Assembly: GCF_000243135.2 (NCBI RefSeq) | Contig: NC_019903.1 | Span: forward strand, 1,960,001 to 2,024,000 | Origin: Desulfitobacterium dichloroeliminans LMG P-21439 | GTDB lineage: Bacteria; Bacillota; Desulfitobacteriia; Desulfitobacteriales; Desulfitobacteriaceae | Length of the DNA: 64,000 nucleotides | Reading direction: 5' to 3' | Shown here: piece by piece, positions 1,174 through 17,928 of the stretch | Position numbering within the stretch: position 1 is the first letter of the stretch | Layout: every line of letters starts with the position of its first letter | The notes under the pieces: model-generated | Told to the model about the DNA's origin: nothing | The model's database searches: none | What the model saw: only the letters and a program-made list of their open reading frames with translations | Made by a program: the position numbers and the translations under genes

Positions 1174-1250
1174 CGGGGCGTAGCGCAGTTTGGTAGCGTG
1201 CTTGGTTCGGGACCAAGAGGCCGCAGGTTCAAATCCTGTCGCCCCGACCA
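1174..1250 (+). tRNA. tRNA-Pro (anticodon CGG)
   Basis: A 77-base cloverleaf with a 7-bp acceptor stem (CGGGGCG/CGCCCCG), discriminator A and an encoded CCA end. The anticodon stem is CTTGG/CCAAG with the loop TTCGGGA, which puts CGG at 1208-1210. It reads CCG proline codons. The T arm contains GGTTCAAATCC. Confidence 0.95.
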
Positions 1251-1938: not shown

Positions 1939-2002
1939 TATGGAAAATTACCCAAGGGGTTGAAATTGTTAATAGGTTAGAGTATGATATATAAAGTAAT
2001 TG

Positions 2003-2112
2003 AATACCTCTGGGGATTGGTGAAACTCCATACCGGCGGTCAAGCCCGCGAGCCTTATGGCAGATCTGGTGTAATTCCAGAGCCGACAGTAAAGTCTGGA
2101 TGAAAAGAGGAA
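2003..2112 (+). promoter_or_regulatory. FMN riboswitch (RFN element) controlling the riboflavin operon
   Basis: The conserved FMN-aptamer blocks appear in order: GGTGAAACTCC, TACCGGCGGT, CCCGCGAGC, TCTGGTG, ATTCCAGAGCCGACAGT and AGTCTGGATGAAAAGAGG. The closing stem P1 is CCTCT (2007-2011) with AGAGG (2106-2110). The same 5' strand, CCTCTGGGG (2007-2015), is exactly complementary to the 5' arm of the downstream terminator (2156-2164). FMN binding should therefore free the terminator, and absence of FMN should allow the antiterminator. This is the known ribD leader mechanism, here supported by complementary pairing. Confidence 0.95.
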
Positions 2113-2155
2113 ATGAAAGTGCATATGCACTATTCTTTTGTTGCGAAATTTTGTA

Positions 2156-16260: not shown

Positions 16261-16602
16261 AAAACAAAAAACCTTTGATCCATAGATCAAAGGTTAATAG
16301 GTAAATATTAATCCCGCAAAGCTCCTCCAACGAAGAAGAATTCCTGGGCAATAAATTTAACTGGGACACTAATGGTAAAACAGTATTGGTCAACCAAGGG
16401 AAATAACTGGATACATGAATCTGTTACTCTGGAAAGGTTCTTCGGATTCCCATAAAGCGAACGTCCAAAAAGTTAGTTAGAACTAAGGTTAGGGTATTCA
16501 AGTTTTTGACCGATGGGGGTATGCTACTCGAAATGGGTAACCTATAAACTCTCATACTGACTTGGAGGAGCTCTGCGGGAAACTTGACTGAATCTTCTTT
16601 AC
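16261..16602 (-). ncRNA. Candidate structured non-coding RNA of about 340 nt
   Basis: A minus-strand transcription unit without a convincing ORF, bracketed by a consensus promoter (16609-16637) and an 11-bp terminator hairpin (16270-16295) with TTTTGTTTT after it. The body is closed by an 18-bp helix: CCCGCAGAGCTCCTCCAA near 16578-16561 pairs with TTGGAGGAGCTTTGCGGG near 16330-16313, with one G-U pair. Inside, further complementary segments are visible, such as CAGTAT/ATACTG, AGGTTA/TAACCT and a TAAC-GAT/ATC-GTTA hairpin. I see no SRP, tmRNA, RNase P or T-box signature. A divergent 6S RNA or another clostridial structured RNA remains possible. Confidence 0.6.
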
Positions 16603-16608
16603 ATCTTT

Positions 16609-16637
16609 ATAATATAGGGGTTAGCACAATCTGTCAA
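16609..16637 (-). promoter_or_regulatory. Consensus promoter of the candidate ncRNA
   Basis: On the minus strand, TTGACA (16637-16632), exactly 17 bases, then TATTAT (16614-16609). No ribosome binding site or start codon follows. The next annotated minus-strand gene is about 490 bases downstream, beyond a terminator. Confidence 0.75.
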
Positions 16638-16712: not shown

Positions 16713-17465
16713 GTGAGAGCAGTATTTACTCTAACCCCAAGTGAATCCAAGCGACTGATTGCTAAGGGAGTCAAAGCTTTGCCTACCATGATAAAAGCTC
16801 TGCAGAACCATACCCTTATTTTAGCAGGTGGAACAACGAATGCCTTTCTTCTCGACGAACTATTAGGAAATAACCTTGCAGAAAAAAGCCGTTATACGGT
16901 CGGTATGATTGCTGCCGGGAAACTAGGCGAAAGCAAAACAGATCAGCGGATCCATCCTTATGTTTTTTCTAAAGGCAAACCTCTCGATTCATCATTTCAT
17001 TGGAAGGATTATTTACCGGAATTAAAAGCAGGCGATATTTTTATCAAAGGAGGAAACGCTGTAGATTCTACAGGCTTAGCCGCCGTTTTTGCAGCCGATT
17101 CTATGGGAGGTACAATCGGTGCAGCCTTTGGCCCTCTCTTTGCTCGTGGAGTTCAGTTAATTGTTCCGATTGGCTTGGAAAAAATGATTCCCGATGTACG
17201 TGAAGCCGTGGAATTTATGAATGCTGGTCCCGTTGACGAAGCAATGGGTAATAAAGCCGGACTAGTACCGATGTTAGGTGCTACGGTGGTGACAGAAATT
17301 ACTGCTCTGGAAACACTTTACAAGATAAAAGCAAAATGCATTGGCGCCGGAGGAATTGCAGGGTCAGAAGGAGCAATTACCATAGTGATCGAAGGTGAAG
17401 ACTCAGTAGTCCGAGAAGCCTTAGCGACTATACACTCTCTCAAAGGCGAACCTCCGGTTCGCTAA
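16713..17465 (+). CDS. Unrecognised conserved-looking cytosolic protein
   Basis: A 250-residue protein starting at GTG after AAAGGAGGA. It is rich in glycine loops: LILAGGTTNAFLLDELLG near residue 40, DIFIKGGNAVDSTGLAAVFAADSMGGTIGAAFGP in the middle, and AKCIGAGGIAGSEGAITIVIEG near the C-terminus. These suggest a nucleotide- or phosphate-binding alpha/beta fold. There are no clear membrane segments. It is transcribed alone, divergent from the candidate ncRNA and ended by a strong terminator. I cannot assign a function. Confidence 0.8.
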   Translation: MRAVFTLTPSESKRLIAKGVKALPTMIKALQNHTLILAGGTTNAFLLDELLGNNLAEKSRYTVGMIAAGKLGESKTDQRIHPYVFSKGKPLDSSFHWKDYLPELKAGDIFIKGGNAVDSTGLAAVFAADSMGGTIGAAFGPLFARGVQLIVPIGLEKMIPDVREAVEFMNAGPVDEAMGNKAGLVPMLGATVVTEITALETLYKIKAKCIGAGGIAGSEGAITIVIEGEDSVVREALATIHSLKGEPPVR

Positions 17466-17529: not shown

Positions 17530-17928
17530 TTAGACAACGGGGATATAGAGCACTTGACCCGGGAAGATCAGATCTGGGTTGCTAAGATTGTTAGCCAGAA
17601 TAATGGCTTGCATGGTGGTCCCGAACCTTTGGGCAATCAGATAAACTGAATCTCCTTGTCTTACAACATAGGTGATGGGTTCGGGAGCAGGTGGCGGGCA
17701 TGGTGGCGGACATGGCCGAGGGCAGCATGGATTTTGATGATGCATGCTATGCATATTATCCATTCCATGATAAGAGTGATAAGGGTTGCCCGGATCTAGG
17801 GTGACCTGACCAGGATAGTAAGTGGGATCTAAAGTAACGAAACCCCCTTGTGGGAAATATTGAGCTTGTTCAGGATATTGCGCCATCATCTCTGGGCTAC
17901 CACCCATCATGTTCATTGGTTGATTCAT
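17530..17928 (-). CDS. LysM-domain protein, spore-coat-like
   Basis: A 132-residue protein. The first half is low complexity, rich in Met, Gln, Pro, Tyr and His, with a Cys/Pro tract (PCCPRPCPPPCPPPAPEP). The C-terminal LysM domain (about residues 85-131: YVVRQGDSVYLIAQRFGTTM to PGQVLYIPVV) binds peptidoglycan-type glycans. No signal peptide is seen, which fits coat or cortex-associated proteins such as SafA-type LysM proteins made inside the mother cell. ATG follows GAGGAAATTTT. Confidence 0.8.
   Translation of the reverse strand: MNQPMNMMGGSPEMMAQYPEQAQYFPQGGFVTLDPTYYPGQVTLDPGNPYHSYHGMDNMHSMHHQNPCCPRPCPPPCPPPAPEPITYVVRQGDSVYLIAQRFGTTMQAIILANNLSNPDLIFPGQVLYIPVV

Follow-up and report, generated by a model that had tools for sequence, protein, structure and literature searches.

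What is encoded on the minus strand between positions 16261 and 16637 of the window, the 64,000-nt stretch of Desulfitobacterium dichloroeliminans DNA that was analysed? The original prediction placed here a new structured RNA that has a promoter and a terminator of its own, and this reading is supported, with the transcript itself untested. Sequence reading, a promoter scan and the promoters of homologues identify a sigma-70 type promoter at 16609-16637 (minus strand). Its TTGACA element lies at 16637-16632 and is followed, after the expected 17 nt, by TATTAT at 16614-16609; the scan scores it 11/12. Promoter-like matches as such are not commoner in the region than in shuffled sequence (4 found versus 3.9 expected). 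The predicted transcription start is near 16602. On the same strand, the terminator scan recovers the anticipated 11-bp intrinsic terminator, with a stem at 16295-16270 and a U-rich tail, so that hairpin and tail together span 16295-16261. The distance from promoter to terminator delimits a noncoding RNA of ~335 nt (16266-16602, minus strand), and a DNA search of 61 relatives finds full-length homologues in two congeners, with nucleotide identities of 81% and 79%. No convincing ORF is present on the minus strand of this region, again as predicted. A coding reading can be rejected because the one candidate, a 43-aa ORF at 16555-16424, lacks its start codon in both congeners, and gaps in the congener alignment break its frame.

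The predicted fold of the window copy is dominated by a helix that closes the RNA over a long distance. Its 5' arm, UCCCGCAGAGCUCCUCCAA (16562-16580, minus strand), was located from the fold and contains a 16-nt core that was counted in 63 copies; the 3' arm, UUGGAGGAGCUUUGCGGGA (16312-16330, minus strand), rests on the fold and on copy comparison. Positions 16580-16562 pair with 16330-16312 in 19 consecutive base pairs, one of them G-U, with 231 nt between the arms. The helix, its single G-U pair and a spacing of about 230 bases had all been foreseen; its length had been put at 18 pairs and becomes 19 once a flanking U-A pair is counted. The longest helix in each of 60 dinucleotide shuffles of the same stretch has only 9-15 pairs. 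The minimum free energy is -102.5 kcal/mol, versus -77.4 +/- 5.0 kcal/mol in shuffled sequences (z = -5.05), and none of 100 shuffles folds as well.

Beyond the two congeners, the DNA search of relatives returns only short matches to a helix arm. When the arm pattern CCCGCARAGYTCCTCC is searched with one mismatch allowed, matches appear in 42 of 46 Desulfitobacteriaceae genomes, usually once per strand and a few hundred bases apart, and the reversed control pattern matches rarely. Requiring both arms yields the 63 copies analysed here; one further, divergent copy was added through a match to the 5' domain described below. With that copy included, the RNA is present in 41 of the 46 Desulfitobacteriaceae genomes, and it also occurs in six genomes of a sister family. 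Carriers include Desulfosporosinus, Acididesulfobacillus and Peptococcaceae. Desulfosporosinus genomes hold one to three copies, in some cases in tandem. Across about 85,000 genomes, no arm pair was found outside the class Desulfitobacteriia. Nine single-arm matches outside the class lack a convincing partner and are about as many as chance would give, and one viral match stands alone; a wider spread is thus rejected. Collections of phages and plasmids contained no copy. The homologues across genomes, together with the near-empty reversed-pattern control, define an RNA family whose reality is almost certain, and the window RNA is one copy of this new family of the class Desulfitobacteriia.

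Do the other copies share the signals of a standalone gene? A perfect TTGACA-16/17-TATAAT promoter (12/12) is found within 260 nt upstream of 45 of 61 copies, and 10 more copies have one with a single mismatch. The mirror-image side of the same 61 copies, used as a control, has no perfect promoter and one with a single mismatch. The side that carries the stronger terminator is the same for all copies, and TTTT is depleted within the RNA copies. A strong house-keeping promoter and an intrinsic terminator are thus supported by sequence. As nearly all copies have a near-perfect promoter, the RNA is predicted, from sequence alone, to be abundant.

The closing helix provides the test of whether the conserved unit is RNA or DNA. 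The arms are the best conserved part of an element that is multi-copy, tandem in some genomes and found in many neighbourhoods, as would suit the terminal inverted repeats of a MITE or an inverted repeat bound by a protein. However, arm differences in the transcribed sense comprise 52 G-U and 5 A-C combinations, an asymmetry that pairing in DNA does not produce. The strand of each copy had been fixed from its terminator and promoter before these differences were counted. Distinct arm pairs alone give 32 G-U and 4 A-C (p = 2e-6), with the caveat that related copies are not fully independent. This preference for G-U rules out a DNA inverted repeat, and a MITE or transposon repeat is rejected as the unit under selection in the closing helix. 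Promoter and terminator also lie at fixed sides outside the arms, and the locus is orthologous between two genera (g1 and g8), neither of which fits a mobile or protein-bound DNA element; the chance that such an element explains the locus is close to nil.

Further properties of the helix point the same way. Positions 1-14 are paired in 881 of 882 cells across the 63 copies, and both-sided, compensatory changes occur at positions 3, 7, 10 and 12. Among the 33 distinct arm pairs, six positions are changed on both sides, versus 2.1 in shuffles, and none of 500 shuffles reaches that number. Sliding the partner arm by one column lowers pairing in these 33 pairs from 97% to about 60%, and slid partners overall are 40-60% paired. 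In one genome (locus L160), a base pair is missing from both arms together, which leaves CCCGCAAGTTCCTCC paired with GGAGGAACTTGCGGG. The G-U bias, the pairing, the both-sided changes and the joint loss of a base pair together show, by comparison of the copies, that the long-range closing helix is maintained by selection as RNA. Covariation in this helix among homologues had been proposed as a check on the original prediction, and it is found. Strong covariation support is limited to the closing helix, whose sequence, as well as its pairing, is nearly invariant across copies.

The neighbourhood of the window copy raises the possibility that the RNA serves the genes beside it. It is flanked, as first described, by small spore-type genes on one side and by an unrecognised gene on the other. 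Downstream of the RNA lie two tandem, small, hydrophobic YjcZ-like ORFs (16114-16007 and 15963-15859, minus strand). The other flank holds a gene for a 250-aa protein (16713-17465, plus strand) of an uncharacterised conserved family, 59-75% identical in seven loci. No relative of this protein was found in Pfam, NCBIfam or the PDB, and its predicted fold has low confidence (mean pLDDT 59). In two genera its gene and the RNA are divergent neighbours, and in two more the gene lies within 2 kb. A LysM protein similar to spore coat assembly proteins of SafA type is encoded at 17530-17928 (minus strand), and elsewhere in the window are an FMN riboswitch (2002-2115, plus strand) and a tRNA gene (1174-1247, plus strand), both ordinary. 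The order of 250-aa gene, RNA and two YjcZ-like ORFs is kept in Desulfitobacterium and in another genus (genome G010). This shared order indicates that the short type of RNA seen in the window and a long type with an added 5' domain are the same gene.

A promoter, an RNA, a terminator and then two same-strand spore genes would also be the layout of a riboswitch, and that layout is conserved between Desulfitobacterium and G010. A cis-acting, terminator-ended leader of the YjcZ-like genes is nevertheless highly improbable and is rejected, since neither the class nor the strand of the downstream gene is constant: YjcZ-like ORFs follow the RNA at only four loci, all in Desulfitobacterium and G010, and the genes downstream of other copies belong to mixed families on both strands, often the strand opposite to the RNA. 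No gene family occurs near more than 17 of the 63 copies, and those that recur often belong to ordinary metabolism. A retron msr-msd RNA would have a reverse transcriptase gene beside it; none of the commonest neighbour families, and none of four neighbours in the window, is a reverse transcriptase, in a scan that did not take in all genes around all copies. With neighbours so varied and on either strand, the RNA probably acts in trans, as far as gene context can tell.

The long type carries an extra 5' domain of ~165 nt, which is found in most Desulfosporosinus copies and in single copies from other genera. It is absent from the window's genus, where the RNA begins ~23 nt ahead of the closing helix. 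The domain is conserved, starts 150-190 nt upstream of the arm and ends in a terminator-like hairpin. A model of it, searched against 83 genomes, matches almost only immediately ahead of the closed domain. The additional matches it gave revealed more copies of the RNA, the sole exception being truncated (L161). At that locus (G067:C427), no closed domain follows the 5' domain and assembly Ns lie nearby, consistent with a truncated or degraded copy. Because the domain has almost no site of its own, it is considered part of the same RNA, and an independent riboswitch of general use is rejected. Column covariation within the domain is dominated by shared ancestry and was not used as evidence. In Desulfosporosinus copies (e.g., L083:3848-3982), the hairpin carries a U tail, and a UGCUAGG further upstream can pair with the hairpin's 5' side and loop (CCUAG). 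This pairing is compensated in two divergent copies, as UGCAGG/CCUGC in L108 and UGCUGG/CCAG in L019. A built-in attenuator or a pseudoknot is possible, and the sampling is too thin to claim either. The 5' domain, with its terminator-like hairpin, might adjust the amount of long RNA produced.

What the closing helix encloses differs greatly from copy to copy. The enclosed length ranges from 227 to 1001 nt, and the interior is hypervariable, whereas the sequence of the helix around it is nearly frozen; interiors of different genera cannot be aligned. A consensus fold common to the three Desulfitobacterium copies is a multibranch that includes arm A on the 5' side (16463-16561, minus strand) and arm C on the 3' side, next to the closing helix (16331-16444, minus strand; CGAAGAA...UUCUUCG). 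Only one of its 86 pairs is changed on both sides, and with three sequences that hardly vary, the interior fold in the window's genus remains unproven. In 45 Desulfosporosinus copies, the two strands of a conserved core, UAGUGGAGGAUUUGUCCAGAUUAGUU and GAUUAAUCUNGAGCCGUGUAUCCAUUA, lie in the 3' half beside the closing helix, at the same position as arm C. The 5' half of these copies, at the position of arm A, is variable and has expanded into tandem repeats in several species, with units of 28 nt in L057 and L102, 13 nt in L092 and 32 nt in L061, all rich in GUUAG or GUCAG. In five copies (L061, L067, L077, L092 and L093), GUYAG-containing tandem repeats extend the enclosed domain to ~780-1000 nt; those of L093 are tetranucleotide-like (GTTA/GTCA).

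The same short motif stands at the edge of the frame in many copies. In the window, a GUCAG lies directly 3' of the 5' arm (16557-16561, minus strand), and GUYAG occurs within 22 nt of this arm in 41 of 62 copies, the window copy included, versus 5.9 expected from shuffles. In total, 405 GUYAG motifs are found where 169.5 are expected. Most of this excess comes from Desulfosporosinus copies rich in repeats, and the sequences, being related, are not independent. Copies from two genera (g2 and g5) and from the sister family have no GUYAG beside the arm.

Two explanations, the main rivals of the reading preferred below, turn on the interior of the RNA. It could be a large ornate RNA whose activity comes from its own three-dimensional fold or from an RNA-only assembly and requires no titrated protein, as OLE, ROOL, GOLLD and raiA/ModT exemplify. 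Its size, standalone promoter and very stable fold would suit this explanation, as would the conserved core in Desulfosporosinus and a possible long-range contact in the window copy between CCCAU (16537-16533) and AUGGG (16453-16449), which has been read from sequence only. However, ornate RNAs keep a conserved interior, and here the interior is hypervariable between genera, to the point that L062 and L102 hold little but repeats within the closing helix. An ornate RNA is therefore considered rather unlikely. Alternatively, fast-evolving loops could pair with changing sets of mRNAs, as in a base-pairing regulatory sRNA. Rapid interior change, a copy number of one to three and strong promoters agree with such a role, but the RNA is well above the usual length of sRNAs, no single-stranded seed common to the genera was found, and tandem repeats are a poor fit to a seed region. 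The likelihood of this explanation is judged to be low.

Could the RNA belong to a family that is already described? No match to it was found in the window with the 4227 models of Rfam 15 at the gathering score, and a search at a permissive E-value gave only chance matches. Sixteen homologous loci likewise gave no match to the RNA, the only hits, to a TPP riboswitch and an L10 leader, falling outside it, and permissive searches of two divergent homologues yielded nothing of note. The comparison with Rfam that had been suggested for 6S, raiA, SRP and OLE thus returns no match for the window RNA. A divergent 6S RNA, which the original prediction took as its main alternative, is rejected, as 6S (RF00013) has no match here and the genome encodes its 6S RNA at another site (G000:C1:2116272, 75.5 bits). 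The reported absence of an SRP RNA signature holds as well: bacterial large SRP RNA has no match at the locus, and the genome's own copy lies at G000:C1:15729-15991 (181 bits). For the other alternative, an RNA of raiA-motif type (RF03072), there is no match in the window, in the RNA itself or in a homologue. The raiA model has no match in the genome either, but the same search was silent in all control genomes. Membership of OLE, ROOL or GOLLD is rejected for want of a match to any of these Rfam models.

Resemblances of a general kind remain. The raiA motif RNA (ModT) is also a standalone structured RNA of a few hundred nucleotides from spore-forming Bacillota, with an incompletely known function. 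The solved structure of its 205-nt motif is a monomer of defined fold (PMC12286853). Its closing helix differs from the present one, and the interior of the present RNA is hypervariable and reaches up to 1 kb. ROOL, GOLLD and OLE are likewise large structured noncoding RNAs with long-range helices, and the function of ROOL and GOLLD is similarly unknown. GOLLD and ROOL belong to phages and prophages and are often close to tRNA islands (PMC12286853), whereas the present RNA is in no phage or plasmid record and has varied chromosomal neighbours. A long closing stem in a standalone RNA recalls 6S RNA. In Y RNAs of the YrlA type, too, a stem of conserved sequence joins the two ends around a variable interior. 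Unlike them, the present RNA is carried by genomes that practically lack Ro60/TROVE, with one weak match, broken by a stop codon, in 83 genomes; this absence excludes a Y RNA bound by Ro60. A repeated short motif in an abundant RNA is a logic possibly shared with CsrB/RsmZ-type RNAs, but the motif here is GUYAG in place of GGA in loops, there is no homology, and the protein partner is unknown.

How might a frozen frame with a free interior work? A protein-binding scaffold or decoy is judged the likeliest answer because short motif repeats beside the frame are amplified and other interior sequence changes freely. The near-invariant helix of 16-19 bp would clamp both ends of the RNA together, protecting it and serving as a fixed recognition element. 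The enclosed arms would then display a fast-evolving payload that starts with GUYAG in most copies and, in some species, has been amplified into long GUYAG arrays. Such an abundant scaffold or decoy would bind and titrate one or more copies of an RNA-binding protein, by a logic comparable to that of the sequestering RNAs of CsrB or 6S type and without implying common ancestry. No gene travels with the RNA among the neighbourhoods of the 63 copies, and hence there is no candidate for the binding protein. Taken together, the proposal that the window locus is a standalone gene for a structured noncoding RNA of ~335 nt, acting in trans as a member of a new family and most likely as an abundant protein-binding scaffold or decoy, has an even chance of being correct; its mechanism is inferred and its transcription untested. 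That protein binding or titration is the main mode of action is put at slightly short of even, as an inference without an identified protein. More tentative is the suggestion of a new class of RNAs, made from near-perfect promoters in several copies per genome, that use a helix of unchanging sequence to frame an exchangeable, rapidly evolving and repeat-expanding payload and would serve as a ribonucleoprotein scaffold or sponge for an unknown RNA-binding protein that reads GUYAG.

No description of this RNA was found in the open-licence literature, which does not exclude a description elsewhere, and the large discovery studies of bacterial noncoding RNAs that were consulted do not name the carrier genera. 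The RNA is new at the level of the family; the broad kind to which it belongs, large standalone bacterial RNAs of unknown function, is already known. The family is easily testable, as RNA-seq is already available for one or more of the carrier species, among them Acididesulfobacillus acetoxydans (PMC10949509; genome LR746496), whose homologue lies at G006:C1:2705380-2705860. Its carriers account for most of a family of anaerobic bacteria with environmental importance, sulfate reducers and dehalogenating spore-formers among them. Bacterial RNAs do not usually join a near-frozen closing helix to an interior that changes freely and expands by repeats, and the contrast raises a question open to testing: what selects the frame but not its content?
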